Shown: piece after piece, positions 3,523 through 58,082 of the stretch | How the letters are laid out: each line of letters starts with the position of its first letter | How positions within the stretch are numbered: the first letter of the stretch is position 1 | Virus record (IMG/VR): IMGVR_UViG_3300036770_004143 | Location: 124,001 to 188,000 of that record | DNA from: a virus | Direction: 5' to 3' (one strand) | DNA length: 64,000 nucleotides | Program-made: the position numbers and the translations under genes | The notes under the pieces: generated by a model | What the model was told of the DNA's origin: nothing | The model's input: the letters and a program-made list of their open reading frames with translations, nothing else | Database searches by the model: none

Positions 3523-4494
3523 TTATGATTTTTTTGTACAGAGATTTTGTACTGCTGTTTTTGTGTTAATAAGAATACCTGGCCTATTTTCTGTTTTATT
3601 ATCACCAATATTAAATTTAAATGTAAAATAACCTTTATCTAAATTTGGACCACATTCTGTATAAAATAATATTTTACTCTTTTCATTTTTTATCTGTATA
3701 GTGTTATTATATTTTTCAGCAATAAAACTATTACCTACATTGATATTAACTTTATACTTTTTTCCCAAAGTAATTAAATCACTTTTAACTGCATTAGTCA
3801 CACTAATTCTATTTGTATTTTTACAAAAATAATTATATACATTAGATATAAAGTTAGAATCTGTTGTGTCAGTAATAGATTTAACAAACCCAGTTGCATT
3901 TAAATCTTTAAATTCACGTGGTTTTTTCATTAATGATTCACAGTTAGTACTATAAATTGGTTGATTTTGTTTATTTCTAAAAAATATTTGCCCCCATTGA
4001 GTGTAAGCATCCTTAACAAATCCAAGTGACTTTGTTTCTTGGTTTATTTTTCTAACAAGACCAGCTGTTGATAATTGTTGATTGGTTGTGGCTTGAGCAT
4101 TAGACACAGCACTAGCAGGAGGTGTTTTTGCATTAGGTGCAATAGTTTTAATATCCCCATCAGTTACTGATATTTTTCCAAATTTAGCAAAAACAGCTCT
4201 TAATGTGTTTGTACCAAATTTACCATCAGGATTAACCTTCAATGCCTGTTGTAAGGGTTTGATATTTTCGCTTTCTGAACATACGAAATAAGGGCCACTA
4301 TTTACTTTTTGATAACCATATGGACAATAGTTTGCAGATTGTTGTTGGGTTGATGCTGCTGGTTGTTGTTGTGGAGCAGTTTGTTGTTGTCTTTGTGCTA
4401 AAGTTTCTGGAGTGTCCATATCATCTTGTTCTAACAACACCCTTTTTATTAATGAAATAAGATTATTTTCACTTAAACGTAATTTATTTTTCAT
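3523..4494 (-). CDS. Leader-bearing peptidoglycan-binding protein
   Basis: 323 residues from the ATG at 4494 (MKNKLRLSENNL). The leader LSENNLISLIKRVLLE ends in L-L-E|Q. A Gln/Ala-rich linker follows. Around residues 60-115, NIKPLQQALKVNPDGKFGTN matches the PG_binding_1 fold (LQ..L.....G.FG..T). The C-terminal about 160 residues are unrecognised. The sequence before the PG domain (CPYGYQKVNSGPYFVC) resembles that in the 7822-9381 protein. This suggests a head-packaged cell-wall-binding protein; localisation is inferred. Confidence 0.85.
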   Translation of the reverse strand: MKNKLRLSENNLISLIKRVLLEQDDMDTPETLAQRQQQTAPQQQPAASTQQQSANYCPYGYQKVNSGPYFVCSESENIKPLQQALKVNPDGKFGTNTLRAVFAKFGKISVTDGDIKTIAPNAKTPPASAVSNAQATTNQQLSTAGLVRKINQETKSLGFVKDAYTQWGQIFFRNKQNQPIYSTNCESLMKKPREFKDLNATGFVKSITDTTDSNFISNVYNYFCKNTNRISVTNAVKSDLITLGKKYKVNINVGNSFIAEKYNNTIQIKNEKSKILFYTECGPNLDKGYFTFKFNIGDNKTENRPGILINTKTAVQNLCTKKS

Positions 4495-10544: not shown

Positions 10545-11015
10545 ATGAACATATTCTTCTTGGATGAAAATCCCCAACTAAACGCCCAATATCATTGTGA
10601 CAAACACGTGGTTAAGATGATATTGGAAACAGCACAATTGCTATGTTCTGTGCATCATATGTGTGATGAGATTGATGTACCATATAAATTGGCGCATAAG
10701 AACCATCCATGTTCCATCTGGTGTAGAACATCATTAAGTAATTATTTTTCATTATGTGAATTGGGTCTTGAATTATCAAAAGAATACACCCATAGATATG
10801 GAAAGCACCATAAATCAACAGATGTGATTCATTGGTGCTTAGATAATCTTCCAAATATTAAAGATATTGGGTTCACCAAACCCCCACTTGCAATGCCAGA
10901 ACAATATAAAGTAGATGATTATGTCCAATCATATAGGAACTATTATATTGGGGATAAAAAAAGATTTGCAACCTGGAAAAATAGAGATGTTCCTTCTTGG
11001 TTTAAGGACATTTGA
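10545..11015 (+). CDS. Conserved phage protein of unknown function
   Basis: 156 residues from the ATG at 10545; the upstream TTG is part of the promoter. It begins MNIFFLDENPQLNAQYHCDK, continues HVVKMILETAQLLCS, and has YKLAHKNHPCSIWCR and YRNYYIGDKKRFATWKNRD. I recognise these as blocks of a protein widespread in phages but know no proven activity. Conserved His and Cys residues suggest metal binding. Its host-type promoter and lack of a leader suggest early expression. The 3' end overlaps the convergent gene by 14 nt. Confidence 0.88.
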   Translation: MNIFFLDENPQLNAQYHCDKHVVKMILETAQLLCSVHHMCDEIDVPYKLAHKNHPCSIWCRTSLSNYFSLCELGLELSKEYTHRYGKHHKSTDVIHWCLDNLPNIKDIGFTKPPLAMPEQYKVDDYVQSYRNYYIGDKKRFATWKNRDVPSWFKDI

Positions 11016-11745
11016 TGTTTTTTACTGTACCAAACCTTTTTATTAATTGTATATTTTGCATTAATTTATCTATATTACGCCTATAAACAGTAATTTGCAA
11101 ACACACTTTTACTGAGTCTTTTCCTACTGGTATTGGTACAAAATCTATTTCACCTCCAGTCAAATATGGCTTTCTTAAAGTACTAGTATTATCTATTGGT
11201 GGTTGTTTTACTTGCATATTTTCTGTTGAAGAATATCTTATATTAACAAATTGTTCAGCATTTGCTTCTGGGCTATTAGGTACATTATTCTTACCAACAA
11301 GTGTTGCTTGTATTGAAAATTGTGTTTGCAAATTAGGTATTGCATTTTTCAAAGCAGCAATAAAAGACTTGGCTCTATTTTGACCCAAAGCAATATTTTT
11401 AGAACCATATGTGTCCTCACCTCTATATGTTACTGCTGAAACACCAGGTGTGATAATAGCACTACTTACTTTATTATTTGAAAATAAATCCATAGCTCTC
11501 CTAAACTCATTAGAATTTGTATCAACAATACTAGAACCTAATTTAAATAATGCTTTACCTAATTGTGTTTCTTGTGTCATTTGTGCATCTTGTGAAACAT
11601 CTCCTCTATCTCTAACAGCATATGGATCAAATTCACCCCTCTCACGATTTGGGCTCAAATCTCTAGGTGGTAGTGCTTGCTCATATATTATTCTTTTTAC
11701 TAATTTATTTAAACCAGATTCTGTTAATTTGTATTTTTTTTCCAT
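11002..11745 (-). CDS. Leader-bearing protein, possibly OmpA-like domain
   Basis: 247 residues from the ATG at 11745. The leader LTESGLNKLVKRIIYE ends I-Y-E|Q-A-L-P-P. The body contains LGSSIVDTNSNEFRRAMDLF, then YGSKNIALGQNRAKSFIAAL, which recalls the OmpA C-terminal peptidoglycan-binding fold (N..L...RA..V...L). The match is partial. If right, this is another cell-wall-binding packaged protein. TATTTATA is 12 nt upstream. Confidence 0.75.
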   Translation of the reverse strand: MEKKYKLTESGLNKLVKRIIYEQALPPRDLSPNRERGEFDPYAVRDRGDVSQDAQMTQETQLGKALFKLGSSIVDTNSNEFRRAMDLFSNNKVSSAIITPGVSAVTYRGEDTYGSKNIALGQNRAKSFIAALKNAIPNLQTQFSIQATLVGKNNVPNSPEANAEQFVNIRYSSTENMQVKQPPIDNTSTLRKPYLTGGEIDFVPIPVGKDSVKVCLQITVYRRNIDKLMQNIQLIKRFGTVKNIKCP

Positions 11746-25959: not shown

Positions 25960-26580
25960 ATGGATAATATTACAAAATTAATTAAAGAGAATTTAGAAAA
26001 ATTCACTAATAGAACATTGGTATTAAAGAAAAATGTAAATATATCAGAAGAACTTGAATACCATATTAATGAAAACTTAACATTAACTAATAATGTTTTT
26101 ATGGTTTATTCCAAAAAATACTTTGACTTGATTAATGAGGTTAGAGATTTATGGATGAGAGATTTAATCCAACTAAATGAAGAAGATGAACAAATGGTAA
26201 TGTCAGATACTGGCAAAGTTGCATTATTTGAAGGTGAAATGGTTTATCTTGATGCACCTGTACTTGAAAGTGATGATTTTGATTTCTTAAATGAGGCTGA
26301 ACATAGGGGTAAAAAAGTTAATATAGGAAAACCATTTAGAACTCCTGGTGGACCAAAGAAATTTGCAGTTTATGTTAAAACACCAGGTGGGGGCGTTAAA
26401 AAGGTTACATTTGGTGATCCAAATTTAAAGGTGAGAAATAAAAACAAAGGTGCAGCCAAATCATTTAGAGCAAGACATAAGTGTGACCAAAAGAAAGATA
26501 GAACCACAGCAGGATACTGGTCATGTAATGTGGGCAGATATTCAAAACAACTTGGATTAAAATCTTCAAATAGTTGGTAA
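25960..26580 (+). CDS. DUF5872-like protein with internal cleavage site
   Basis: 206 residues. The N-terminal 110 residues are helical and acidic (NEEDEQMVMSD). D-F-L-N-E|A-E-H-R-G at about 110 is a candidate prohead-type cleavage site. The basic C-terminal domain reads KPFRTPGGPKKFAVYVKTPG, VTFGDPNLKVRNK, KSFRARHKCDQ, YWSCN. This is the DUF5872-type pattern found in several marine and other phages. It probably ends as a basic, DNA-associated head protein after processing. The next gene begins on its last base. Confidence 0.82.
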   Translation: MDNITKLIKENLEKFTNRTLVLKKNVNISEELEYHINENLTLTNNVFMVYSKKYFDLINEVRDLWMRDLIQLNEEDEQMVMSDTGKVALFEGEMVYLDAPVLESDDFDFLNEAEHRGKKVNIGKPFRTPGGPKKFAVYVKTPGGGVKKVTFGDPNLKVRNKNKGAAKSFRARHKCDQKKDRTTAGYWSCNVGRYSKQLGLKSSNSW

Positions 26581-27170
26581 TGGAAAAAGAAGCATTAAAA
26601 AGAATATTTGATTTTCTTGAAGAAAAAGGAGAACATAGGGGTCCATTATTTTGGAAGCATAAAAATAATATACCATTAACAGATGAAGAATTAAATATTG
26701 AAGGTAATTTGGATTTAAGTGATACAAATATAACCTCTTTACCAAAAGGATTGAAAGTTGGTGGTGATTTGGATTTATCATTTTTAAACATAACCTCATT
26801 ACCAGATGGATTGAAAGTTGGTGGTTATTTAAATTTATCATATTCAAACATAACTTCATTACCAGATGAATTGAAAGTTGATGGTAATTTAGGGTTAGCT
26901 TTTTCGCCAATACAAACATTACCAAAAGGATTGAAAGTTGGTGGAACTTTGAATTTGAATAATTGTGATGATATAACCTCATTACCAGAAGGATTAAAAG
27001 TTGGGAAATGGTTCAGTTTATCCGGTTCTAAAATAACTTCCTTACCAAAAGGATTGGAAGTTGGTGATGATTTATTTATAAGTTGGACAACTTTAACCAA
27101 ATACACAGATGATGAATTAAAAAAAATGATTAAACCTGGATTTATAAAAGGTGAGATAGTAAGAAAATAA
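26580..27170 (+). CDS. LRR protein, array copy 1
   Basis: 196 residues. Conserved N-terminus (MEKEALKRIFDFLEEKGEHR), PLTDEELN linker, then about six 22-23-residue repeats of the form LP-x-GLKVGG-x-L-x-L-x-x-T-x-I-x-S. The C-terminal cap is YTDDELKKMIKPGFIKGEIV. These are leucine-rich-repeat solenoids for binding a partner; the target is unknown. Start overlaps the stop of the DUF5872-like gene. Confidence 0.9.
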   Translation: MEKEALKRIFDFLEEKGEHRGPLFWKHKNNIPLTDEELNIEGNLDLSDTNITSLPKGLKVGGDLDLSFLNITSLPDGLKVGGYLNLSYSNITSLPDELKVDGNLGLAFSPIQTLPKGLKVGGTLNLNNCDDITSLPEGLKVGKWFSLSGSKITSLPKGLEVGDDLFISWTTLTKYTDDELKKMIKPGFIKGEIVRK

Positions 27171-27694
27171 TGAAAAAAGAAACCCTAAAAAGAATATTTG
27201 ATTTTCTTGAAGAAAAGGAAGGGAAATCATCTATTAAATGGAAATTAATTAATGATATACCATTAACAGAAGAAGACTTAAATTTTGAAGGTGATTTATT
27301 TTTAAGAAATTCAAAAATAACCTCATTACCAGAAGGTTTGAAAGTTGGGGGGACATTAAATTTATTCAAATCAAAAATAAAATCATTGCCAGAAGGATTG
27401 AAAGTTGGTGATGATTTGGATTTAAGTGAATCTGATATAGAGTTTTTACCAAAAGGATTGGAAGTTGGGGGTGATTTGTATTTACTTGATACACCCATAA
27501 CTTTTTTACCAGAAGGTTTGAAAGTTGGTGGTTATTTGGATATAAGAGATACAAAAATAACTTCCTTGCCAAAAGGATTGGAAGTTGGGGGTAATTTGTA
27601 TATCTATAGAACACCATTAAAAAAATACACAGATGAACAAATAAGAGAAATGATAAAATCTGGATTTATAAAAGGAAGAATATTTAGGCAATGA
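27170..27694 (+). CDS. LRR protein, array copy 2
   Basis: 174 residues, begins MKKETLKRIFDFLEEKEGKS. About five repeats (SLPEGLKVGGTLNLFKSKIK type), cap YTDEQIREMIKSGFIKGRIF. TAATG overlap with copy 1 and ATGA overlap with copy 3: translationally coupled. No leader. Confidence 0.9.
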   Translation: MKKETLKRIFDFLEEKEGKSSIKWKLINDIPLTEEDLNFEGDLFLRNSKITSLPEGLKVGGTLNLFKSKIKSLPEGLKVGDDLDLSESDIEFLPKGLEVGGDLYLLDTPITFLPEGLKVGGYLDIRDTKITSLPKGLEVGGNLYIYRTPLKKYTDEQIREMIKSGFIKGRIFRQ

Positions 27695-28518
27695 ACAAAG
27701 AAATAGTAAAAAGAGTATTTGATTTTATTGAAAAAGAGGAAGGGCATAAAGTACCATTTTTATGGAAATTATTTAATAATATACCATTAACAAAAGAAGA
27801 TTTAATTGTTAAAGGGGATTTGAATTTAGAAGATTCAGAAATAACCTCATTACCAGAAGGCTTAACAATTGAAGGTGATTTCTTTTTTTATCATACACCT
27901 GTTGAACTACCAAAAGGGTTGAAAGTTGGTGGTAATTTATCTTTAATTGGTCCAAATGTAACCTCATTGCCAAAAGGATTGGAAGTTGGTGGTAGTTTGT
28001 TTGTATCAGATACAGAAATAACCTCACTACCAGAAGGATTGAAAGTTGGGGGTGATTTAGATTTAGCAGATACACAAATAACCTCATTACCAGAAGGATT
28101 TAAAGTTGGGGGTAATTTAAACTTATCACATTCAGAAATAACACGATTACCAAATGATTTGGAAGTCAATGGCAATTTGACTTTAAGTTTTTCAAATATA
28201 ACCACATTACCAAAAGGATTAAAAGTTGGAGGTGATATTAAGTTGTTGGGTTCAAAAATAAGATCCTTACCAGAAGGATTGAAAGTTGTGGGTCGGTTGG
28301 ATTTAAGAGATACCACTATAGGTTCATTACCAAAAGGCTTGGAAGTTGGTGAGAAATTAGCTTTAAATGATTGCAAAAAATTAACTTCATTACCAAAAGG
28401 ATTGAAAGTTGGGGGTGATTTAATTATAATTCGGACAAATTTAACCAAATACACAGATGATGAATTAAAAAAAATGATTGGTTCGGGTTTTATAAATGGT
28501 GAGATAATAAGAATATAA
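27691..28518 (+). CDS. LRR protein, array copy 3 (largest)
   Basis: 275 residues with about ten repeats, roughly twice its neighbours. Begins MNKEIVKRVFDFIEKEEGHK. One repeat is shortened (EGDFFFYHTPVELPKG), showing unit loss. Copy number differences between paralogues suggest repeat expansion by unequal recombination. Cap YTDDELKKMIGSGFINGEII. Confidence 0.9.
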   Translation: MNKEIVKRVFDFIEKEEGHKVPFLWKLFNNIPLTKEDLIVKGDLNLEDSEITSLPEGLTIEGDFFFYHTPVELPKGLKVGGNLSLIGPNVTSLPKGLEVGGSLFVSDTEITSLPEGLKVGGDLDLADTQITSLPEGFKVGGNLNLSHSEITRLPNDLEVNGNLTLSFSNITTLPKGLKVGGDIKLLGSKIRSLPEGLKVVGRLDLRDTTIGSLPKGLEVGEKLALNDCKKLTSLPKGLKVGGDLIIIRTNLTKYTDDELKKMIGSGFINGEIIRI

Positions 28519-28922
28519 TGGAAAAAGAAACATTAAAAAGAATATTTGAATTCCTTGAAGCAAAAGGAGAACAGAGAATACCATTCTTGTGGAAATGGAA
28601 AAATGAAATACCATTAACAGAAGAAGACTTAAATGTTCAAGGTGATTTGGATTTAAGTAATTCAAACATAACCTTATTGCCAGAAGGTTTGAAAGTTAGT
28701 GGTACTTTTGATTTAGGATATTCAAATATAACATCATTATCAGAAGGATTGAAAGTTGGTGATGATTTGTATTTAAGTAATTCAAACCTATCCTCATTAC
28801 CAAAAGGATTGGAAGTTGGGGGTTTTATATTTATATATAATACACCATTAACAGAATACACAAATAATGAATTAAGAGAAATGATTAAGCCTGGATTTAT
28901 AAAAGGAAGAATAATTAGATAA
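28518..28922 (+). CDS. LRR protein, array copy 4
   Basis: 134 residues, about three to four repeats. Begins MEKETLKRIFEFLEAKGEQR, with PFLWKWKNEIPLTEEDLNVQ nearly identical to copy 5, so these two look like a recent duplicate pair. Cap YTNNELREMIKPGFIKGRII. TAATG overlap at both ends. Confidence 0.9.
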   Translation: MEKETLKRIFEFLEAKGEQRIPFLWKWKNEIPLTEEDLNVQGDLDLSNSNITLLPEGLKVSGTFDLGYSNITSLSEGLKVGDDLYLSNSNLSSLPKGLEVGGFIFIYNTPLTEYTNNELREMIKPGFIKGRIIR

Positions 28923-29395
28923 TGAATATAGAACAACTAAAAAGAATATTTAATTTCCTTGAAGAAAAAGGAGAACAGAGAATACCATTCTTGTGGAAAT
29001 GGAAAAATGAAATACCATTAACTGAAGAAGACTTAAATGTTCAAGGGGACTTGGATTTTTCACAATCAGAAATAGAATCTTTACCAGAAGGATTAAAAAT
29101 TAGTGGTGATTTGGATTTATCCTACACATATATAAGGTCATTACCAAAAGGATTGAAAGTTGGTGGTCATTTGGATTTAACTGAAACAGATATAGAGTTT
29201 TTACCCAAAGGATTGGAAGTTGGGGGTGATTTAATATTAGATGGTTGTGCCAATATAAAAACCTTACCCAAAGGCTTGAAAGTTGGGGGTAATTTGGAAT
29301 TAACAGGTATAACATTAGGTGAAGATTATGATGATGATGAACTAAGAAAAATGATTAAACCTGGATTTATAAAAGGAAGAATTAATGCAGAATGA
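28922..29395 (+). CDS. LRR protein, array copy 5
   Basis: 157 residues, about five repeats, begins MNIEQLKRIFNFLEEKGEQR. The cap is altered (LGEDYDDDELRKMIKPGFIK). It shares with copy 4 a near-identical N-terminal 45 residues but differs in the repeats, showing that the recognition part diverges faster than the head. Confidence 0.9.
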   Translation: MNIEQLKRIFNFLEEKGEQRIPFLWKWKNEIPLTEEDLNVQGDLDFSQSEIESLPEGLKISGDLDLSYTYIRSLPKGLKVGGHLDLTETDIEFLPKGLEVGGDLILDGCANIKTLPKGLKVGGNLELTGITLGEDYDDDELRKMIKPGFIKGRINAE

Positions 29396-29859
29396 AAAAA
29401 GAAGTACTAAAAAGGATATTTGAGTTCCTTGAAGAGAAGGAAGGACATAATTTACCATTCTTATGGAAGTTGATGTCTAATGAACCATTAACAGAAGAAG
29501 AATTAAATGTTAAAGGTCATTTGACTTTAAGTAATAAAGGAATAGAAACATTACCAAAAGGATTGAAAGTTAGAGGTGATTTGGATTTGCAAGATTCCTC
29601 TATAAAATCATTACCAGAAGGATTGAAAGTTAGGGGTAATTTGATTTTAATTGATACACCCATAACTTTTTTACCAAAAGGGTTAGAAGTTGGCGGTTAT
29701 TTGGATATAAGATATACAAAAATAACCTCCTTACCAAAAGGATTGGAAGTTGGTGCTACTTTATATATTAAAAATACAGCATTATTAGAATACACAGATG
29801 AAGAATTAAAAGAAATGGTTAAACCTGGAATTTTAGCAAGAAGAATATATAGAGAATGA
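29392..29859 (+). CDS. LRR protein, array copy 6
   Basis: 155 residues, about five repeats. Begins MKKEVLKRIFEFLEEKEGHN, ATGA overlap with copy 5. The N-terminal DNA sequence is almost identical to copy 7. Cap YTDEELKEMVKPGILARRIY. Confidence 0.9.
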   Translation: MKKEVLKRIFEFLEEKEGHNLPFLWKLMSNEPLTEEELNVKGHLTLSNKGIETLPKGLKVRGDLDLQDSSIKSLPEGLKVRGNLILIDTPITFLPKGLEVGGYLDIRYTKITSLPKGLEVGATLYIKNTALLEYTDEELKEMVKPGILARRIYRE

Positions 29860-30260
29860 AAAAAGAAGTACTAAAAAGGATATTTGAGTTCCTTGAAGAG
29901 AAGGAAAATAAAAATCCACCATTTATATGGAAATATGAAAATAATCTACCATTAACAAAAGAAGAATTAAATGTTGAAGGTGATTTGAGTTTGGTTCAAT
30001 CAAATATAGAATCATTACCAGAAGGATTGAAAGTTGGGCGTGATTTGGATATTTTTGGTTCAAAAATAACCTCATTACCAAAAGGATTAGAAGTTGGGCG
30101 TTTTTTGGATATAAGAGATACAAAAATAACCTCCTTGCCAAAAGGACTAGAACTTGGTAGTAGTTTGTATATTAGACATACAGCATTAGTAAAATATTCA
30201 GATGAAGAATTACAAGATATGGTTAAACCTGGATTTATAAATGGAATAATACATAGATAA
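29856..30260 (+). CDS. LRR protein, array copy 7
   Basis: 134 residues, about three to four repeats. Begins MKKEVLKRIFEFLEEKENKN; cap YSDEELQDMVKPGFINGIIH. It ends the array, and the cupin gene begins on its last base, so array and cupin may be one transcript. Confidence 0.9.
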   Translation: MKKEVLKRIFEFLEEKENKNPPFIWKYENNLPLTKEELNVEGDLSLVQSNIESLPEGLKVGRDLDIFGSKITSLPKGLEVGRFLDIRDTKITSLPKGLELGSSLYIRHTALVKYSDEELQDMVKPGFINGIIHR

Positions 30261-39099: not shown

Positions 39100-39960
39100 A
39101 TGAAAAGTGAAGGCATTAATGTTTTAAGTTTATTTGATGGAATGTCTTGTGGACAAATTGCATTAAATAGGCTTGGTATAAAGATATCAAAGTATTATGC
39201 ATCTGAAATAGATAAAGCACCAATAAAGGTGACACAGCATAATTATCCAGACACAATCCAGGTTGGGGATGTTACCAAAGTAAAGGGTGATGATTTACCG
39301 CAAATTGATTTGTTAATTGGGGGTAGTCCATGTCAAGGGTTCTCTTTTGCTGGAAAGAAACTTAATTTTGAGGATCCAAGAAGTATTCTATTCTTTGAGT
39401 TTGTTAGGTTGCTTGATGAATGTAAACCTACATATTTTCTATTGGAGAATGTGAAGATGAAGAAAGAATGGCAAGATGTCATTAGTGATTTGTTGGGGGT
39501 TCAACCAATGAGGATTAATAGTTCAAAATTTACAGCAGCAAAGAGAGATAGGTTATATTGGACAAATATCCCAAATATTTCTGAACCTATTGATAAGGAA
39601 ATATCATTTGATGATATTAATTCAAATATTGATGAATGGATTGAACCTGAAAGGATTGAAAAAATTGCTGCCTGGAAGGCACAACAAAAACCTTTAAAAA
39701 ATGCCACATTTATTGGAAGAAAATCAAAATTGCCTTGTTTGACAGCAAGGGGATATAACCAATATCATAGTGGAATGATATTGATAACAGATGGTGAGAA
39801 GTATAGGTATTTAACCAATGAAGAAGCAGAGATGGCACAAGGTGTTCCTGTTGGCTACACATCTATATGTAATGATAGAGAAAGAAGCCATATGCTTGGG
39901 AATGGGTGGACAGTTGATGTAATTGCTCATATATTTTCACCACTAAAAAATGAATTATGA
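39100..39960 (+). CDS. DNA cytosine-5 methyltransferase 1
   Basis: 286 residues. Motif I NVLSLFDGMSCGQIALN, motif IV GGSPCQGFSFAGK with the catalytic Cys, motif VI ENVKMK, motif VIII AAKRDRLYWTN, motif X LGNGWTVDVIAHIF. It transfers methyl from AdoMet to cytosine C5. No restriction partner, so probably self-protection of phage DNA. ATGA overlap with the next gene. Confidence 0.95.
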   Translation: MKSEGINVLSLFDGMSCGQIALNRLGIKISKYYASEIDKAPIKVTQHNYPDTIQVGDVTKVKGDDLPQIDLLIGGSPCQGFSFAGKKLNFEDPRSILFFEFVRLLDECKPTYFLLENVKMKKEWQDVISDLLGVQPMRINSSKFTAAKRDRLYWTNIPNISEPIDKEISFDDINSNIDEWIEPERIEKIAAWKAQQKPLKNATFIGRKSKLPCLTARGYNQYHSGMILITDGEKYRYLTNEEAEMAQGVPVGYTSICNDRERSHMLGNGWTVDVIAHIFSPLKNEL

Positions 39961-40595
39961 ATATATTAGAATTATTTGCTGGAAGTAGATCCATTGGTAA
40001 AGTTGGTGATAAATTGGGAATGAATGTTTTTTCTGTTGATTGGGAGAAATATGAAGATATTGATTTATGTATTGATGTTGCAAAATTGAAGAAAGAGGAT
40101 ATTCCCTTTATACCTGATTTAATCTGGGCATCTCCCGACTGCACAACATATAGTATTGCTGCTATTTCAACCCATAGAAACAATACTGAACCAAAAAGTG
40201 AATATGCCAAAAAATGTGATGCGACAAATCAGCATTTCATATCCTTAATTAAGGAGTGGTTGGAGATTAATCCTGATATGGTTTTCTTTATTGAGAATCC
40301 AAGGGGTATGTTAAGAAAGATGCCCTGGATGCAGGAATTTAAAAGACACACCATATGGTATTGTGTTTATGGTGATGAAAGAGCTAAGCCAACCGATATA
40401 TGGACAAATTCAGATAAATGGATTCCAAGACCAGTATGTCATAATGGAAATAAGGAATGTCATCATGCACCTGCTCCTAGGGGGTCAAAAACTGGAACAC
40501 AAGGCAGAAAAGGGTCATATGAAAGGAGTAAAATACCTGAACAATTATGTTATGAGGTATTAGAATCTCTCAATAAACCTAATATTACACAATAA
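39957..40595 (+). CDS. Divergent C5 methyltransferase-like protein
   Basis: 212 residues. MNILELFAGSRSIGKVGDKL is motif I of the cytosine methyltransferase fold. WASPDCTTYSIAAIS holds a P-D-C in place of P-C, and FFIENPRGMLRKMPW replaces the E-N-V motif. This variant is widespread in phages and usually annotated as DNA cytosine methyltransferase; whether it methylates is uncertain. It starts within the stop of the previous gene. Confidence 0.85.
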   Translation: MNILELFAGSRSIGKVGDKLGMNVFSVDWEKYEDIDLCIDVAKLKKEDIPFIPDLIWASPDCTTYSIAAISTHRNNTEPKSEYAKKCDATNQHFISLIKEWLEINPDMVFFIENPRGMLRKMPWMQEFKRHTIWYCVYGDERAKPTDIWTNSDKWIPRPVCHNGNKECHHAPAPRGSKTGTQGRKGSYERSKIPEQLCYEVLESLNKPNITQ

Positions 40596-40630
40596 AGTAA
40601 TTAAGTTTATTGTGCAAAAACAACTTTATT

Positions 40631-41455
40631 ATGGAAATAAAAGGTCCTTTTTCATATAGTGGGAACAAATATAAGATATATAAGGCTCATTTAAAGCCCA
40701 TTTTTGATGAATTTGACCAAGTTATTGAGCCATTTGCTGGTTCTGCGCCCCTATTATACAATGCAAAGGGGGGTGGAATTGGCTCTGACACCAATAAAGC
40801 GGTTGTTTTTATGCATAATTCACTAAAAATTGATGAAATTGACAAGAAAATGGAGGAAATTTACCATTTTTACTTCAAAAATGGGCTAAATAAGGACTCT
40901 TATATGGAATTAAGGTCATTTTTCAATGAAAAGTGGAAAATATTTGGGTTTTTTGATGAAATTGCACCACATTTTCTATTATTATGCCAATTATCCTTCA
41001 ATTCTTTGGTTAGATTTAGCAAAAATGGGTATAATGTACCATTTGGAATGAAAAAACCTGACTTTAATAGGGTTTTAGTGCATTCAAACATCTCAAAATC
41101 AAGAAATATCACCATATTTGAGTTAGAATATGATAAATTGGACATTTCTTTGTGTAAAGATGCCATAATTTACTTAGATCCACCATATATTGCATCAAAA
41201 TACCAATATAATGGGTGGAATGTTGAAGATGAGGTTAAATTATTGGAATATATTGATAATTTGCACAAAATTGGGAGGAAATTTGTATTATCCAACACAT
41301 TATATCATAGAGGAGTTAAAAATGAACACCTAAATGCCTGGATTTCCAAGTATAATGTTAAATATATTGATAAAAACTACAATTCTTGGTCTGCGGCAGT
41401 CAAATCTGTTAAAAATGACTATAAAACATGTGAAATTATTGTAGATAATCTATAG
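40631..41455 (+). CDS. DNA N6-adenine methyltransferase (D12 class, Dam-like)
   Basis: 274 residues from the ATG at 40631 (MEIKGPFSYSGNKYKIYKAH). Motif X FSYSGNK, motif I IEPFAGSAPLLYN, motif IV YLDPPYIASKYQYNG. D12-class adenine methyltransferases such as Dam and T4 Dam have this order. It probably protects phage DNA; the site cannot be read from sequence. Confidence 0.92.
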   Translation: MEIKGPFSYSGNKYKIYKAHLKPIFDEFDQVIEPFAGSAPLLYNAKGGGIGSDTNKAVVFMHNSLKIDEIDKKMEEIYHFYFKNGLNKDSYMELRSFFNEKWKIFGFFDEIAPHFLLLCQLSFNSLVRFSKNGYNVPFGMKKPDFNRVLVHSNISKSRNITIFELEYDKLDISLCKDAIIYLDPPYIASKYQYNGWNVEDEVKLLEYIDNLHKIGRKFVLSNTLYHRGVKNEHLNAWISKYNVKYIDKNYNSWSAAVKSVKNDYKTCEIIVDNL

Positions 41456-41465
41456 AATTAAGAAT

Positions 41466-42620
41466 ATGAATGTATTAAGTTTGTTTGATGGGATGAGTTG
41501 TGGCCAAATTGCTTTAAATAAAGCAAATATTCCATATAATAACTACTATGCTGCTGAAATAGACAAGTATGGTATGCAAATAACAAAGAAAAACTACCCC
41601 AACACAGTTCATTTGGGTGATGTAACTCAAATAAGGGGTAATAATTTGCCAAAAATTGACTTATTGATTGGTGGTAGTCCTTGCCAGGGGTTTTCATTTG
41701 CTGGGAAACAACTTAATTTTGATGATCCAAGGAGTAAATTGTTCTTTGAGTATGTTAGAATACTAAATGAGGTTAGAGAAACTAATCCAAATGTTAAATT
41801 TTTGCTTGAGAATGTGAAAATGAAGAAAGAATTCTCTGATATAATATCAGAACATCTTGGAGTTGAACCTATTAAGATAAATAGTTCATTAGTTTCTGCC
41901 CAAAATAGACTTAGGTTATATTGGACAAATATTGAAGGTGTTGAACAACCAGAAAATAGGAAAATATATCTAAAAGATGTTTTAGAACCTATTGTGGATG
42001 ACAAATATTACATATCACAGATTGCTGTTGAAAAACTAAATAGACATGGTAATAAAGTAATTAAGGAATTGGGCATTCCTAAAAAATCTGGAACAATACA
42101 TGCTGGATATTATAAGATGGGAGGTAGAGATCAGCAGTATGTCAAGGATATTCCAGATTTACAACCATCATTGCAAGATAGGATTTATTCAGATGATGGT
42201 AAATTTGTTGCAATAACCCCCTCCTTTATGCCATATGTTATTACAATTGATAATCATCATTCAGATTCTGAATTAAAATGTGTTGGTGCATTGGGTAAGA
42301 ATAAAAAATGGCTTGATAATGGTAAAAACTTGCAAAGAAACTTTTCACAAGGGGAGAGAATATATTCAACTGATGGTAAATCACCTTGTTTGTCTGCAAA
42401 TAGTGGTGGTAGTGCTGGGGTTGGTAATACATTGATAACAGATGATATAAAAGATGAATACAAAATTAGGAAATTGACACCTATTGAATGTGAAAGGTTG
42501 CAAACAGTTCCAGATAATTATACAGAGGGGGTTTCAAACACTCAAAGGTATAAAATGTTGGGTAATGGATGGACAGTTGATGTTATTACACATATATTTG
42601 AAAAATTAAAAAGTTTATAA
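41466..42620 (+). CDS. DNA cytosine-5 methyltransferase 2
   Basis: 384 residues, paralogue of copies 1 and 3. NVLSLFDGMSCGQIALNKAN, GGSPCQGFSFAGKQLNFDDP, LLENVKMKKEF, SAQNRLRLYWTN, and LGNGWTVDVITHIFEKL. The target-recognition region (about 190-330) is about 80 residues longer than in copy 3, so a different specificity is likely. It starts 10 nt after the adenine methyltransferase. Confidence 0.95.
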   Translation: MNVLSLFDGMSCGQIALNKANIPYNNYYAAEIDKYGMQITKKNYPNTVHLGDVTQIRGNNLPKIDLLIGGSPCQGFSFAGKQLNFDDPRSKLFFEYVRILNEVRETNPNVKFLLENVKMKKEFSDIISEHLGVEPIKINSSLVSAQNRLRLYWTNIEGVEQPENRKIYLKDVLEPIVDDKYYISQIAVEKLNRHGNKVIKELGIPKKSGTIHAGYYKMGGRDQQYVKDIPDLQPSLQDRIYSDDGKFVAITPSFMPYVITIDNHHSDSELKCVGALGKNKKWLDNGKNLQRNFSQGERIYSTDGKSPCLSANSGGSAGVGNTLITDDIKDEYKIRKLTPIECERLQTVPDNYTEGVSNTQRYKMLGNGWTVDVITHIFEKLKSL

Positions 42621-42623
42621 CTA

Positions 42624-42631
42624 TATTTATA
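42624..42631 (+). promoter_or_regulatory. TATTTATA late-type motif
   Basis: 11 nt upstream of the 42643 start, inside the methyltransferase cluster. Confidence 0.45.
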
Positions 42632-42642
42632 TAATAAAAAGT

Positions 42643-43131
42643 ATGGATAAATTATATAAACAAATTAATAGGGTTAAATTTTTAATGGAAGACCATAAAA
42701 ATTTTGGGGATGAAAGATTTGGTATTGGAAACTCCATTGATTTACTTAAAAATAATTATAACATACACAAAGAAGATAAATTACCAGAAGAACTAATTAA
42801 TGTACATGATTCTGCAACACATTCTGAATACTGGGAAGATACGTTAAAATATGTTTCATTAAAAAAAAAGAAATTAAGTAATAACAAAAAATTATATACA
42901 ACTCAAAGTTATTTATCAAAATCATTTATTGATACAATAGATAATAATGTTTATAATTATTCTGATATAATTGTTGCAACTGCAAATGATGATAAATTAT
43001 GGATTTTAAATGGTCATCATAGAATTTACTATGATAGATTAAATGATAGAAATTCTATAGCATATATTTTATCAAAAAATGATGTAAAAGAAATTGACAA
43101 TGTGTTTTACACAAGTGAAGATGATGAATAA
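42643..43131 (+). CDS. Leader-bearing ParB-like protein
   Basis: 162 residues. Leader YKQINRVKFLME|DHKNF (L-M-E). Near residue 125 LWILNGHHRIYYDRLNDRNS matches the G-H-H-R core of the ParB/sulfiredoxin-like fold, which includes nucleases and CTP or ATP users. Its own late motif and leader set it apart from the methyltransferases around it. Possible packaged nuclease or nucleotide-modifying protein. Confidence 0.78.
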   Translation: MDKLYKQINRVKFLMEDHKNFGDERFGIGNSIDLLKNNYNIHKEDKLPEELINVHDSATHSEYWEDTLKYVSLKKKKLSNNKKLYTTQSYLSKSFIDTIDNNVYNYSDIIVATANDDKLWILNGHHRIYYDRLNDRNSIAYILSKNDVKEIDNVFYTSEDDE

Positions 43132-43144
43132 TAAATATTGAAAT

Positions 43145-44050
43145 ATGAATGTATTAAGTTTGTTTGATGGGATGTCTTGTGGCCAAATTGCATTGAATAG
43201 GGCTAATATTCAATACAACAATTATTTTGCATCAGAGATAGATAAGAATGCCATAAAAGTTACACAGCATCATTACCCTAACACAGTTCAATTGGGTGAT
43301 GTGACAAAAATTGAGTTTATTGCTTCAAAGATTGATTTGTTAATTGGGGGAAGCCCCTGCCAGGGTTTTTCATTTGCTGGGAAGCAACTTAATTTTGATG
43401 ATCCAAGGAGCAAGTTATTTTTTGAGTTTGTTAGATTAATTGATGAGTGTAAACCAACATATTTCTTATTGGAGAATGTTGTGATGAAAAAAGAATATGA
43501 GGATGTTATTACCCAATATTTGGGAGTAGAACCAATCAAAATTAATAGTTCGTTGGTTTCAGCACAAAATAGAATTAGATTATATTGGACAAATATACCA
43601 AACGTTAAAGAGCCAGAGGATAGGAACATTTCATTGAGTGATATTCTTGAGGATGATTCTATTATAAATCCTGGTGCAATTAGGGGTAGGAGATTAAATA
43701 AAGCAACCATAATTGGTAGAAGGTTAAATTTTGATGGAAAGAGAAAAGATTATGACAAAGATATACCCATTACCCAATGCTTGGAAGTAAGAGCAACCAA
43801 TACAAATAAGAGCAATTGCCTCACCACTGTTGATAAGGACAATGTATTGACCACAATGCCCATTGGAAGGCATCCAAATGCTTTTAAAGATAAGTTACCA
43901 TTTAGATACTACACATTAAAAGAGTATGAGAGGCTTCAAACAATACCAGAAGGTTATACAAGTGTTGTATCTACATCACAAGCAAAAAAAATGATTGGTA
44001 ATGCTTGGACAGTAGATGTTATTTCACATATTTTCTCTTACTTAAAATAA
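43145..44050 (+). CDS. DNA cytosine-5 methyltransferase 3
   Basis: 301 residues. Motifs as in copy 2 (LSLFDGMSCGQIALNRANIQ; SPCQGFSFAGKQLNFDDP; SAQNRIRLYWTNIPN; MIGNAWTVDVISHIF). DNA identity to copy 2 is high at the 5' end, showing recent duplication. The variable region contains RGRRLNKATIIGRRLNFDGK. Probably another specificity. Confidence 0.95.
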   Translation: MNVLSLFDGMSCGQIALNRANIQYNNYFASEIDKNAIKVTQHHYPNTVQLGDVTKIEFIASKIDLLIGGSPCQGFSFAGKQLNFDDPRSKLFFEFVRLIDECKPTYFLLENVVMKKEYEDVITQYLGVEPIKINSSLVSAQNRIRLYWTNIPNVKEPEDRNISLSDILEDDSIINPGAIRGRRLNKATIIGRRLNFDGKRKDYDKDIPITQCLEVRATNTNKSNCLTTVDKDNVLTTMPIGRHPNAFKDKLPFRYYTLKEYERLQTIPEGYTSVVSTSQAKKMIGNAWTVDVISHIFSYLK

Positions 44051-51398: not shown

Positions 51399-51854
51399 AT
51401 GAATTTACAAGAGAACATCCAGAGAATTATAGAGGTAATGAATATAAATCAATACAAAGACATCCAGGCATATAGGGGTATTGGCAAAAGAATAAATGCA
51501 ACATATGGTGGGAATGATGATGGTATTGGTGTATTCTGGACTGACAATATGACAATGGCAAAATGGTTTGCTGGGTTAATTGAATATGATGTTGATACGG
51601 ATCAATATGAAACCATTTCAGAAGATGGAAAGGTTATTGAAAAAACATTAAACTTTAATAACCCATATGTAATTACAACAGATGATGAGGATTATGACGC
51701 ATTCCAGCAATATATGGATGAGATTAAAGAAACTGGTGGTGTGGAGGCCTACAAATCAAATTTAATTGATAAAGGCTATGATGGCATTATATTAGAAGAC
51801 AACAACACCAATTATTATGAAGATGGTACATACAACATCTATATAGAATTTTAA
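51399..51854 (+). CDS. ADP-ribosyltransferase-like protein 2
   Basis: 151 residues. Starts MNLQENIQRIIEVMNINQYK: the same leader family as protein 1, but the cleavage Glu is Gln (I-N-Q), so it may not be processed. Body QAYRGIGKRI, GVFWTDNMTMAKWFAG, LIDKGYDGIILEDN matches ART-like domains of polyvalent proteins (R-G start, F-W-T strand, GYDGI). Function inferred from pattern. Confidence 0.75.
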   Translation: MNLQENIQRIIEVMNINQYKDIQAYRGIGKRINATYGGNDDGIGVFWTDNMTMAKWFAGLIEYDVDTDQYETISEDGKVIEKTLNFNNPYVITTDDEDYDAFQQYMDEIKETGGVEAYKSNLIDKGYDGIILEDNNTNYYEDGTYNIYIEF

Positions 51855-52491: not shown

Positions 52492-53172
52492 ATGAAAAAA
52501 ATAATATTAACAGAATCTGAATTAAACTTTTTGATTAAAAACATACTAAATGAAAATTTAATATTGGAATCAAATAGAAGGGGGTTAAATGTGGATAATT
52601 TAGAAAGAACTTTTGCACATTACAATCAGCTTGAATCTCGTGGAACATTCAATGAAATATTCAAGTATGAAAGGGAAAATGGAATAGAACCTATGAAATC
52701 TTTCACAAATGGTTGTGCTACCAAAGTTTCTTTGGCATTAAATTCTGCTGGACAATCATTAAACCCAACTTTTAGGGTATCAAATGGACCATTTAAAGGT
52801 AAATATGTACAAACAAGTGCTAAAGGACTTAAAGACGAATTGATGCAAAAATGGGGGCAACCAGATGTATTTATAAAAAAAGTAGAATCTCTTAAACAAG
52901 TTCAAGATAAAATTGGTCCTGGTAAGAGTGGGGTTTATATTTGCACACCATGTGGATTTAAAACATGTACAGGACATGCTGCTATTTGGTCTTGGAAACT
53001 AAATGGTAATAAAGGTGGTCCTATGGACAACACAACATATCCAGAAGTTAAAGGTGGAACAATATATTTTTGGCAAGTTGGAGAAACTGTTACTAATTTA
53101 TATGGTTGGGATGTTAATAAAGATAACATGTTAAAAACAAAGAATCAATCCAATTTTCCCCTAAATATCTAG
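52492..53172 (+). CDS. Leader-bearing Tae4-like amidase
   Basis: 226 residues. Leader LTESELNFLIKNILNE|NLILE|S with two consecutive candidate sites. Core SFTNGCATKVSLALNSAGQS with Cys75 and KTCTGHAAIWSWKL with His162: the Cys/His pair and N-x-C-A-x-x-x-S-x-A-L-N block of Tae4, an NlpC/P60-like amidase of type VI secretion that cuts D-Glu-mDAP bonds. As a packaged enzyme it could aid passage through the wall or act after entry. Confidence 0.82.
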   Translation: MKKIILTESELNFLIKNILNENLILESNRRGLNVDNLERTFAHYNQLESRGTFNEIFKYERENGIEPMKSFTNGCATKVSLALNSAGQSLNPTFRVSNGPFKGKYVQTSAKGLKDELMQKWGQPDVFIKKVESLKQVQDKIGPGKSGVYICTPCGFKTCTGHAAIWSWKLNGNKGGPMDNTTYPEVKGGTIYFWQVGETVTNLYGWDVNKDNMLKTKNQSNFPLNI

Positions 53173-53197: not shown

Positions 53198-53413
53198 ATG
53201 AAAAGAATATTTAAATTAACAGAAAGTGATGTTGCAAGAATCATTAAAAAAGTTGTAAAAGAAGCCGACCCTGGTGATGGAACACCAGATGATTTTTCTG
53301 AATATGAAGGAAGAACTAACATTTATGCAAATAGTGTTAATAATCCTAAACATCTATTTAATAAAAAAAGTAAAAAACCTTTAGTTTACAACACAAAAAA
53401 CCAAAATATTTAA
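53198..53413 (+). CDS. Small leader-bearing protein
   Basis: 71 residues. Leader MKRIFKLTESDVARIIKKVV, then KE|ADPGD (V-K-E|A). The mature part of about 49 residues is polar (DGTPDDFSEYEGRTNIYANS). Almost a naked targeting peptide with a short cargo, useful as a minimal example of the leader. Terminator follows. Confidence 0.78.
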   Translation: MKRIFKLTESDVARIIKKVVKEADPGDGTPDDFSEYEGRTNIYANSVNNPKHLFNKKSKKPLVYNTKNQNI

Positions 53414-53420
53414 ATAAAAA

Positions 53421-53448
53421 ACCCCCACAATAAATGTGGGGGTTTTTT
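53421..53448. terminator. Bidirectional terminator
   Basis: CCCCCACA / TGTGGGGG stem, T6. Confidence 0.9.
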
Positions 53449-53449
53449 A

Positions 53450-54256
53450 TTAAAAACTTTTTAATGTTGATTTATTAAAAGTGAATTCTGAACTATATAA
53501 ATATTCACCAAAATTTAAATCATACCAAGGTGATTCTCTATCATCACCAACAAGAATTTGAATATCTTGTGCAGGCATATAACTTTGTGCTAACATAAAT
53601 TTAACCTCACCATTTTTATTAAAACATTTATCCACAACAATTACAGCATGACCTGGAAATCCACCAACAATGAATACATCTCCAATTTGCAAATCATTTA
53701 TTGGTTTTGATTTAAGTTGTTTGCTCAATGAATATGTGTTGGCATAAGAGAAAACTCCACACATATATTTCCATAAATTATTGGTTGATGGATTTCTACC
53801 TTCTAAGAAATTAATATAATTTGATTTAAATCCACTTACATAGAAAAATTCAATTTCATTATACTTTTTTTGGGAAAACAAATATTCAGCACGTAATCTC
53901 ATAATGGCATCAGCACACTGGTGGTTAGGATTCCCCTTAAATGGCAAATTAACAACAGCACAATAGGCAGATGTGTTGGTTTTTAATGATCCATCAAAAT
54001 GTTTAACTTTTGATCCATTTGGTAGCAAAGGTAAATTTTGTAGATATTCACCAAATGAATTTTTTTTAGATTTTACTCTTACAAAACCTTCTGGTGTGTT
54101 AAACCTTGTTTTCACTACAAATCCATCTTCATTTAAGATTTGTTTTGATTTAACAATAATAGTTTCATTTTGTGCAGAACTATTACTACAAGAGTTATGT
54201 ACAAGTAAACCAATTAATACAAAAATGATTAACAAATAATTTTTTAATATTTTCAT
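53450..54256 (-). CDS. DUF4846 lipoprotein
   Basis: 268 residues. Lipobox-like LIGLLVHNSCSNSS after a hydrophobic N-terminus. TRFNTPEGFVRVKSKKNSFG, EYLQNLPLLPNGSKV, NHQCADAIMRLRAEYLF, GDVFIVGGFPGHAVIVVD and AQSYMPAQDIQIL are the conserved blocks of DUF4846, a Bacteroidota family resembling papain-like folds (H in PGHAVIV). Probably host-derived; exported to the envelope. Confidence 0.9.
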   Translation of the reverse strand: MKILKNYLLIIFVLIGLLVHNSCSNSSAQNETIIVKSKQILNEDGFVVKTRFNTPEGFVRVKSKKNSFGEYLQNLPLLPNGSKVKHFDGSLKTNTSAYCAVVNLPFKGNPNHQCADAIMRLRAEYLFSQKKYNEIEFFYVSGFKSNYINFLEGRNPSTNNLWKYMCGVFSYANTYSLSKQLKSKPINDLQIGDVFIVGGFPGHAVIVVDKCFNKNGEVKFMLAQSYMPAQDIQILVGDDRESPWYDLNFGEYLYSSEFTFNKSTLKSF

Positions 54257-54321: not shown

Positions 54322-54903
54322 TTAATCATACTTATTCTTGACAGGTATTGCCAATTCCGGATAGAATATTGCAATATCCTTTCCTGTAAATATTTCATCT
54401 CTATGATTAATCTTATAATGTGGTGAATTATCAATATATATTGAATCAAAACCTTTCTCTTTTAGGGCTTCAATAAATGGTCTTGATTCCAGAACAGACC
54501 AATCGCCATCATAAAGGGCTTCTGATGCTGCTTCCTCATAATCTCTAATTCCTCCCCTTTGATGTTGGATAGTAGAGAAATCCCCAGTATCTGCTAAAAG
54601 TTCAATATACTCTGGGTCATCAGAATATTGTTCTGGGTCAAATGTATTCTTTACATTTAGATGGTAAGATAGGATTCTAACATGACCATAGTCTGGTTCA
54701 GACTTTTCAGGGTAATCAAAATTCATTGCATATCTATATGCAATTTCTTTATGTTTGGTAAAAAAGATTAATCCCCTTTCATTGATTTTTAATTCATCAT
54801 CATTAAAATTTGGGTTATCTGTTCCATGATAGTATGTATCAGAACTATCAACATTAGCTTCCATAAGGACTATAATCCTATTAATATTTTCTTGCAAGTT
54901 CAT
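54322..54903 (-). CDS. Leader-bearing ADP-ribosyltransferase-like protein 3
   Basis: 193 residues. Leader MNLQENINRIIVLME|ANVDS (L-M-E|A). DTYYHGTDNPNF, GLIFFTKHKEIAYRYAMNFD, SYHLNVKNTFDPEQYS, EALKEKGFDSIYIDN: the H-G-T start, F-F-T strand and G-F-D-S block of ART-PolyVal-type domains. The strongest ART candidate of the three. Late motif 15 nt upstream. Confidence 0.82.
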   Translation of the reverse strand: MNLQENINRIIVLMEANVDSSDTYYHGTDNPNFNDDELKINERGLIFFTKHKEIAYRYAMNFDYPEKSEPDYGHVRILSYHLNVKNTFDPEQYSDDPEYIELLADTGDFSTIQHQRGGIRDYEEAASEALYDGDWSVLESRPFIEALKEKGFDSIYIDNSPHYKINHRDEIFTGKDIAIFYPELAIPVKNKYD

Positions 54904-55735: not shown

Positions 55736-57097
55736 ATGAAAATATTAATCAATGAGAATCAATTAAGTGATATCATAAATGAAGCAATACCTTATAAAAT
55801 TGCAAAAAAATATTTAGAATTAAATAGGAATCCAAGCATAAAAAAACATATTGATAATATGTTTAATAAGTTAAAAGAAATGCCAGGAGCAAGAGTATTG
55901 GATAAAGCTGGGGATAGGGTTGCATTCCCTTATAAACAAATTGATTTGGAAAATGAGATTAGCAAGATGCTTAAAAATAATAAATATAAATTAGTAGATT
56001 TCAATAATAATGAGGCATTAAGTGTTAAAGATATCATTGGGGAAAAACCTCAACCAATCAAAATAAGCAAAGCATTAACAATAATATCAAAAAAAAGTGC
56101 TGAGGCGGGTAGATTATTAAAATTATATAATTATACTAGAAGCCAGAGTATTAAAGACGAGGATATTGAATTTATGATTGTATTTTCAAGAAAAAAATAT
56201 GATCTTGCTGGAATGACATATGGAAGGAGTTGGCCATCAAACTGTATGCACTTGACAGATGGGGTTAATAAGGATTTCATTTTAAAAGATGTTGAAAGTG
56301 GAACAATAATATGTTATTTGATAACCAAAGATGATATAAATATAGATGATCCAATTGGTAGAATTTTAATAAAACCATTTGTTAATGTTGATGATGAATC
56401 TGATGTGATTTTATATCCAGAAACAAAAACATATGGCAATATAAAAGACACATTTAAATTTGTTAAAGATATTGATAAATATATGGATGCTGCTCAATCC
56501 ATTAAATGGAAATATGATTTAAAAAAAGGTTTATATTGTGATGGAAGGAGGAAGACTGTGTTTGGTAAAGATGCATTAAGACTTGAAGTATTAAAAAGTA
56601 TGGAACAGGGTTATTTAACAAGAGATGAAAATGAATTGGCATTGTTAACATCAGAAGATTTATATAAATATGTTAATAAGAAGATTGATAAGTTTAAGGA
56701 TAGTCCATCAGCATATAAAGAATTAGAATATGAAGATTTTAAAGTAGCAACTTCAGAGCAAATAAATCAATATTTTGATATTATCAAACAAAATAATCTA
56801 ACTGTAAATATAAATAATATTAGATTTTTGAAAAAAAGTATAATAAAAGATTATTTAGATAATCAAATTTTAAAATATAAAAATAAACTTAGAAATAAAC
56901 TTGATGAAATTGAAATTTTCTTATTAACAGATAACCAGAAAAAAGAATATTCAAATAGTGTTATTGATAGAAATGAAATGTTAGATGATAAATTATTTGA
57001 TTTACTTTCATTTGATGAAAAGGTTGATTATTTTAAAAAAGGTAATAGTTTTTCTGGGCGTCAACGTGAATTTAGAAATAAAATATTAAATAATTAA
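55736..57097 (+). CDS. Leader-bearing YGRxW-CMHL protein, copy 1
   Basis: 453 residues. Leader MKILINENQLSDIINE|AIPY (I-N-E|A). Right after the cleavage site comes AIPYKIAKKYLE, also conserved in the 58154 paralogue, so the mature N-terminus is conserved. Core MTYGRSWPSNCMHLTDGVNK, DVESGTIICYL, DPIGRILIKPF, ILYPETKTYG. Conserved Cys in W-P-S-N-C-M-H-L. C-terminal 160 residues are charged. Function unknown; related in layout to the other Cys-motif proteins. Confidence 0.87.
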   Translation: MKILINENQLSDIINEAIPYKIAKKYLELNRNPSIKKHIDNMFNKLKEMPGARVLDKAGDRVAFPYKQIDLENEISKMLKNNKYKLVDFNNNEALSVKDIIGEKPQPIKISKALTIISKKSAEAGRLLKLYNYTRSQSIKDEDIEFMIVFSRKKYDLAGMTYGRSWPSNCMHLTDGVNKDFILKDVESGTIICYLITKDDINIDDPIGRILIKPFVNVDDESDVILYPETKTYGNIKDTFKFVKDIDKYMDAAQSIKWKYDLKKGLYCDGRRKTVFGKDALRLEVLKSMEQGYLTRDENELALLTSEDLYKYVNKKIDKFKDSPSAYKELEYEDFKVATSEQINQYFDIIKQNNLTVNINNIRFLKKSIIKDYLDNQILKYKNKLRNKLDEIEIFLLTDNQKKEYSNSVIDRNEMLDDKLFDLLSFDEKVDYFKKGNSFSGRQREFRNKILNN

Positions 57098-57108
57098 AAA
57101 CATATAGA

Positions 57109-58056
57109 ATGAAAATATTAATCAATGAGAATCAATTAAGTGATATCATAAATGAGGGGTCAATAAGATTAACACCAAGTGAGAGGCAGCAGGTGGAGGA
57201 TATTCTACCCAAAGCGATTGAAGTCATAGCAGGAAAAGACCTTGGAAGCAGCACAGGATGGTGGGGGGCTTTCAAGAAAATTGGCATAATAAGAGCAGTT
57301 TCAGCGGATGGGGAAAAAATATTGATAGATATATTTGTTGGAAATAATATAAGTGATGAAACAAAAACAGCACTAGGTTACTATAATCCAAGAGATCGAA
57401 AAAACCCAAATGATAATTTCATTGTATTGCAACAACGTAACTTATCAAGTTATTTTAAAGGTCCACTAGGTATAGATTCCAAAATAGATAAATTTGCACT
57501 GGGGATAGAAAATCCTGGCATTGAGGAAGTACGAGGGGTGTTGAAACATGAAATCATCCATGCAAAGGATCCAAATATGAATCAACATTTTAAGTTTAGA
57601 TATAAGAAAGAACCAAAAAATTCAAAGGAAGAGGAAAAACTTTATTATAGTTCATGGGAGGAGTTTAAAACAATGTCAGGACAACTACTTGAAGCAATAA
57701 TTGTATGTTCAGAAAAAGCACCAAAACTAGGGATGGAAAAAAAAGATATAATCAATGGTTTAGATAATATACTAATGTTATATGCTGGCAAAACTAAAAG
57801 TTTCAATCAAAATGCCAAGGATCTTATTCAAGGCAGTGGTAAAAGGAATATCTTCCAAAAGATAATAGTAAATAGCAATATATATCAAAAATATCTAATA
57901 TCAAGCAATTATACCCCAGTGGAAACATATCATGCTTATTTGCAAAAAATAAAAGAACACAACCCCAAGGGTTATAACAGATTTTTAAGGGAATTATATA
58001 GGACAATAAATGAGGCCAAAGATATGGCAAATAAACAAGAGGCATATAATGCTTAG
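57109..58056 (+). CDS. Leader-bearing zinc metallopeptidase
   Basis: 315 residues. Leader DNA and peptide identical to copy 1 above (MKILINENQLSDIINE) but followed by G-S-I-R-L, so the leader has been swapped onto a different body. Zinc motif HEIIH in EVRGVLKHEIIHAKDPNMNQ near residue 148; WEEFKTMSGQLLEAIIV may hold the third ligand. Proposed packaged protease. Confidence 0.87.
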   Translation: MKILINENQLSDIINEGSIRLTPSERQQVEDILPKAIEVIAGKDLGSSTGWWGAFKKIGIIRAVSADGEKILIDIFVGNNISDETKTALGYYNPRDRKNPNDNFIVLQQRNLSSYFKGPLGIDSKIDKFALGIENPGIEEVRGVLKHEIIHAKDPNMNQHFKFRYKKEPKNSKEEEKLYYSSWEEFKTMSGQLLEAIIVCSEKAPKLGMEKKDIINGLDNILMLYAGKTKSFNQNAKDLIQGSGKRNIFQKIIVNSNIYQKYLISSNYTPVETYHAYLQKIKEHNPKGYNRFLRELYRTINEAKDMANKQEAYNA

Positions 58057-58082
58057 AATACAAAAAAGTTTTTTTTTTAAAA

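Follow-up and report, generated by a model that had tools for sequence, protein, structure and literature searches.

The amidase locus and its conservation

The window analysed here is a stretch of 64,000 nucleotides, positions 124001-188000 of the 270,075-base IMG/VR virus record IMGVR_UViG_3300036770_004143 (G000). On its plus strand lies a two-gene unit that begins with a gene for a Tae4-like amidase. Its features are as follows.

52492..53172, plus strand: Tae4-like amidase gene (226 aa, ATG start)
52492..52554, plus strand: leader MKKIILTESELNFLIKNILNE, a predicted capsid-targeting propeptide
52600..53079, plus strand: Tae4 domain, residues 37-196
52714..52716, plus strand: Cys75, the predicted nucleophile
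52975..52977, plus strand: His162, the predicted catalytic base
53026..53028, plus strand: Asp179, tentatively a third catalytic residue
53198..53413, plus strand: gene for a 71-aa protein with the same leader, a conserved downstream neighbour of the amidase in a second phage (G040) as well
53413..53451, no strand assigned: strong hairpin (z = -5.4) closing the two-gene unit, likely a (bidirectional) terminator

In a Pfam search of the whole G000 record, the ORF at 52492-53172 was the sole Tae4 match. An identical copy of the gene is present in two other viral contigs, and a profile-led scan revealed an intact homologue in G040 (locus L100), a distinct phage whose record is a fragment. The two proteins are 62% identical across residues 1-199, a stretch that takes in the leader, and the G040 homologue itself scores 35.0 bits with Pfam Tae4 (cut-off, 27). 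Substitutions between them are mostly synonymous, and the lower value of pN (0.27) than of pS (0.68) indicates that the amidase gene is under purifying selection. The ORF is a real gene, and the original prediction that it joins a leader to Tae4 motifs was confirmed by the Pfam match (E=2.5e-9), the leader match (iE=2e-8) and the G040 homologue.

No Tae4 beyond the near-identical copy was found in a scan of 39 related records, many of them fragments in which absence is weak evidence, and a second pattern scan made no additions; Tae4 was thus found in two phage species only. Searches of PHROGs and NCBIfam with the amidase returned no strong match, and INPHARED returned none with the amidase as query. 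A DUF4846 lipoprotein-like gene lies near the amidase in both phages (window 53450-54256, minus strand; L100 1233-2045, minus strand). Elsewhere in the window, three paralogous C5 DNA methyltransferase genes stand close together (39100-44050).

The Tae4 domain and its predicted catalytic residues

A profile search against Tae4, which had been proposed along with the original prediction, gave a score well above the curated cut-off (37.7 versus 27 bits, E=2.5e-9), with Pfam Tae4 (PF14113) matching residues 71-170. Profile-profile comparison with 15 bacterial Tae4s (hhalign) aligned residues 37-196 with a probability of 98.9%. The stretches NGCATKVSLALN (residues 73-84) and TGHAAIW (residues 160-166), originally read as the catalytic Cys and His blocks of Tae4, were upheld as such by Pfam, phmmer, an 81-row alignment and hhalign. 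In the phmmer alignments, Cys75 falls on Cys50 of Ssp1 (the residue changed in the C50A mutant, 4bi4) and His162 on the catalytic His of 4j30. The Cys75 column holds Cys in 81 of 81 cellular (bacterial) relatives, and the His162 column holds His in all but one of the 79 cellular rows having a residue there. The assignment of Asp179 is more tentative: the same Asp occurs in both phage proteins, yet it sits one column off the Tae4 family Asp position, and that position is itself mostly occupied by residues other than Asp in the wider family.

According to the alignment, both phage proteins are missing the cysteine pair that flanks the third catalytic residue of T6SS Tae4 and is required for toxicity there (PMC3695027). 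In its place, both have Cys151 and Cys154. That the phage protein contains a Tae4-family (NlpC/P60) domain with intact catalytic Cys and His columns is well supported by these comparisons, and homology to solved Tae4 structures predicts a papain-like NlpC/P60 fold. As judged by this homology, the phage enzyme is distantly related to the wall-cutting Tae4 enzymes that bacteria use against rivals. In a phylogenetic tree, the two phage proteins fell outside the proteobacterial clade, in a group with long-branched sequences from Helicobacter and Fibrobacterota, on what appears to be a deep separate branch; this placement is unsure because of the long branches.

An N-terminal leader shared by many phage proteins

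The leader, whose core LTESELNFLIKNILNE comprises residues 6-21 of the amidase, lies wholly upstream of the Tae4 domain, where most sampled bacterial Tae4s begin. The cut is predicted after E21 (LNE/N, the slash marking the cut), with an alternative after E26 (ILE/S) that would extend the leader codons to 52569. A signal peptide was considered and rejected on hydropathy, as the leader has no hydrophobic stretch: its 9-residue hydropathy maximum is 1.37, compared with 3.50 for the neighbouring lipoprotein. An INPHARED search with a 23-residue leader peptide gave no match, and a literature search found no full-text account of this leader.

We surveyed such leaders among the 1,200 called genes of five related phage records (G000, G040, G023, G034 and G036), using an anchor motif, [LIV][TNS]E..[LIVMF], and an end motif, [LIVM]xE, at a fixed distance from it. 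The end motif was present at the fixed position in 39 of 69 N-terminal anchors but after only 1 of 197 internal ones. A profile trained exclusively on G023, G034 and G036 matched the amidase leader with iE=2e-8 and detected 19 proteins in G000 and G040 at iE<=0.001, all of the matches starting at residue 12 or earlier. With this profile, reversed proteins yielded 0 matches, and no internal matches were obtained at iE<=0.001. At iE<=0.01, the leader profile found nothing in 615 kb of bacterial loci, and the leader class was likewise absent from Flavobacterium phage immuto, the closest cultured relative found. Similarly, class A leaders began 45 of the 1200 N-termini but followed only 2 of 3815 internal Met residues used as a control. 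A further class (D), of short leaders, was set aside because its frequency at N-termini (14/1200) did not exceed that at internal Met (32/3815).

Altogether, the five records contain 42 leader proteins, which fall into 35 body clusters. Their alignment shows conservation confined to the leader, where E8 is the same throughout and E21 almost throughout (34 leader proteins for E21). The sequence comparisons thus provide good support for a genuine N-terminal module common to many unrelated phage proteins, with about 35 unrelated bodies carrying it. Besides the amidase and its 71-aa neighbour, the window contains further proteins with this or another type of leader.

3523..4494, minus strand: 323-aa protein, same leader class, weak peptidoglycan-binding match
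11002..11745, minus strand: 247-aa protein, same leader class by leader profile
18612..19361, minus strand: 249-aa protein, same leader class by leader profile
51399..51854, plus strand: ADP-ribosyltransferase-like protein, second leader type (MNLQENI...), Pfam ART-PolyVal below cut-off
54322..54903, minus strand: ADP-ribosyltransferase-like protein, MNLQENI leader, Pfam ART-PolyVal below cut-off
55736..59401, plus strand: three proteins, third leader type (M[KR]ILINE.QLS.II.E)

The 71-aa protein was considered as an immunity protein for the amidase; this is not favoured, given that it bears the same leader and has no match to Tai4 or Rap1a models. Several other families with common N-termini were observed. 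About a dozen tandem small proteins at L100 and L196 (G040:92000-102000) start with MKIIITE(S/N)Q and have no fixed LxE end. A large tandem family of LRR-like paralogues (window 26574-30260 and other places in G000) has the common start M(E/K)KE.LKRIF.FLE.K, and more than 20 tandem tiny ORFs of 60-80 aa (G000:190000-202000, minus strand) have an M(K/R)NI motif in common at their N-termini.

Peptidoglycan-binding domains occur in other leader proteins, which suggests that wall-directed cargo is a theme among them. In a related phage, a leader of this kind precedes a Peptidase C39-like cysteine peptidase (L222:14088-14759, minus strand).

Most of the peptidoglycan hydrolases that phages encode are endolysins. 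The amidase might thus have this commonest of roles and lyse the cell that produces it, its N-terminal segment being incidental or serving another role, and the expected diderm host would have a wall of the kind that Tae4 enzymes cut. We nevertheless regard this as unlikely. The same leader occurs on some 35 unrelated bodies in related phages and hence is not specific to lysis, and the Amidase_2 (70.7 bits) and GH19 (25.5 bits) genes of the window, either of which could fill the lysis role, both have no leader.

Head protease, predicted capsid cleavage site and the reading of the leader

Among the proteins encoded by G000 are a T4 gp21-type prohead protease (Peptidase_S77/gp21-family, PF03420, 78.7 bits; phrog_207, head maturation protease) and, as identified with PHROGs, a gp20-type portal, a terminase and a gp23-type capsid protein. 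In aligned columns, the site in the capsid precursor reads YLINEA in G000, HLINEA in G034 and FLINEA in G040, G023 and G036, so that INE/A is invariant in the major capsid protein of all five phages, at the expected cleavage site. Scaffold proteins carry LVKESL.EQ, much like the leader ends. The residue after the cut differs, being A in the major capsid protein and mostly Q, N or S in the leaders.

In T4, the gp21 prohead protease cuts after L/I-x-E, and the internal proteins have N-terminal capsid-targeting propeptides of 10-19 residues (PMC9026906). The leader matches these propeptides in position, order of length, shared use and end motif. Because a gp21-type protease and an [LI]xE/A capsid site accompany a shared leader ending in [LIVM]xE, a capsid-targeting propeptide is the best reading of the leader, and by analogy with T4 the leader proteins would be packaged and cleaved.

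This connection of the leader to the head is one of sequence analogy and not a physical one, and cell-wall hydrolases are often carried by phage tails. The leader might then be a different targeting tag, directing proteins to the tail or baseplate, to a replication compartment or to the membrane on which head assembly begins; in that case the enzyme would be tail-associated or cytoplasmic. Such a tag seems improbable to us, however, as the T4 prohead-protease motif closes the leader at a fixed distance, sites of this kind also occur in the head precursors of these phages, and the small unrelated proteins that bear the leader look less like parts of a tail than like T4 internal proteins. The capsid-targeting propeptide accordingly remains our preferred reading. 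The original prediction of a Tae4 fold loaded into a phage head is partly supported. Computation shows homology to Tae4, with the columns of the catalytic Cys and His retained, and identifies the leader as a module common to many N-termini, alongside the gp21-type protease and the matching capsid site; the loading itself stays a prediction from sequence evidence.

Affiliation of the phages

Comparison of major capsid proteins placed the phage among the T4-like phages, and its nearest cultured relatives include a Flavobacterium phage. The related phage G034 has a bS21-like ribosomal protein gene in antisense orientation within its head module (G034:108711-108896). In this, and in having the same head gene set, it resembles the bS21-encoding phages of freshwater Bacteroidetes (PMC9723584), although the available portion of that paper mentions neither the leader nor its cargo. 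The capsid relatives together with the bS21-like gene make Bacteroidota the likely hosts.

On balance, we lean towards the view that a clade of large uncultured phages, probably of Bacteroidota, possesses a modular head delivery system in which one interchangeable leader serves dozens of unrelated cargos, including a Tae4-family amidase in at least two phages. If so, the leader would be a readable label of injected proteins. A list of such proteins could be drawn up purely from sequence, and in these genomes dozens of functionally uncharacterised genes would stand out as candidate early-infection effectors.

A proposed route for the amidase

We think it probable, from homology and by analogy with T4, that the gene encodes a papain-fold Tae4-family peptidoglycan amidase whose precursor bears a T4-type capsid-targeting propeptide and which is packed into the head, ejected with the DNA and used to cut the wall. 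From packaging and cleavage through injection to substrate and site of action, the course that we infer is the following. Having no signal peptide, the precursor would stay in the cytoplasm of the infected cell, where the leader of 21-26 residues would dock it in the core of the prohead. Cleavage behind the Glu of the L/I-x-E terminus, by the phage's gp21-type protease, would next remove the leader, and the mature enzyme would remain in the head. When the new virion infects, the enzyme would leave through the contractile tail together with the DNA. By cutting the peptide stems in the peptidoglycan of the host, it would ease, or else limit, the breach made by the passage of tail and DNA through the wall. 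Since an enzyme with no signal peptide cannot reach the producer's wall before lysis, this route would also explain why no immunity protein was found.

Access to the wall is the hardest step to explain, because T4 internal proteins are delivered to the cytoplasm, where they act (PMC9026906) and where peptidoglycan is out of reach. The amidase might be released in the periplasm during ejection or else have a different, cytosolic substrate. For the latter case, the head-packed enzyme would act in the host cytoplasm on a target other than the wall, for instance a host protein or the precursors of peptidoglycan in the cytosol. Such a target would agree with the behaviour of the T4 internal proteins, with the missing T6SS-type cysteine pair, which is tied to periplasmic activity, and with the deep phage branch outside the proteobacterial Tae4 clade. 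We still consider it very unlikely, as the overall Tae4 domain and its Cys and His columns are kept and another substrate has no direct support. Further observations speak against the head-cargo proposal as such: immuto does not have the leader class, the T6SS cysteine pair is missing, Tae4 was found in two phage species only, and the residue after the cut is not the same in the major capsid protein as in the leaders. We continue to favour a head-packed enzyme that would act on the wall.

Comparison with known systems

The phage proteins resemble the Tae4 effectors of the T6SS (PF14113; Ssp1, 4bi3; StTae4, 4j30) in that the whole domain can be aligned, including the catalytic Cys and His and a C-terminal strand with an FW motif. 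They differ from them in having an N-terminal leader, in not having the conserved cysteine pair and in their deep separate branch. The gene context differs as well: in a control T6SS locus (L101), Hcp, the Rap1a immunity protein and Tae4 are encoded side by side, whereas neither G000 nor the fragmentary G040 record gave a match to Tai4, Rap1a or Hcp.

The proposed carriage of a wall-cutting enzyme in the head has a counterpart in T7, where gp16, like some other ejected virion proteins, carries a cell-wall hydrolase domain inside the head. As predicted here for the amidase, a cell-wall enzyme is thus carried in the head and ejected. The folds differ, however, and T7 gp16 is a core protein that does not use this propeptide route.

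The T4 internal proteins (IPI-III and Alt) share with the leader proteins a short N-terminal propeptide, found on unrelated proteins and ending in L/I-x-E, and in both cases a gp21-family protease and a gp23-type capsid protein are encoded in the same genome. The phage leader differs from the T4 propeptides in sequence and is longer (21-26 versus 10-19 residues), and its cargo, as predicted from the genes, comprises among others a cell-wall amidase and proteins that bind peptidoglycan. A Tae4-family enzyme has apparently been recruited as T4-style head cargo. If this is true, one enzyme family would serve two related contractile machines, as T6SS cargo passed between bacteria and as cargo of a phage head.
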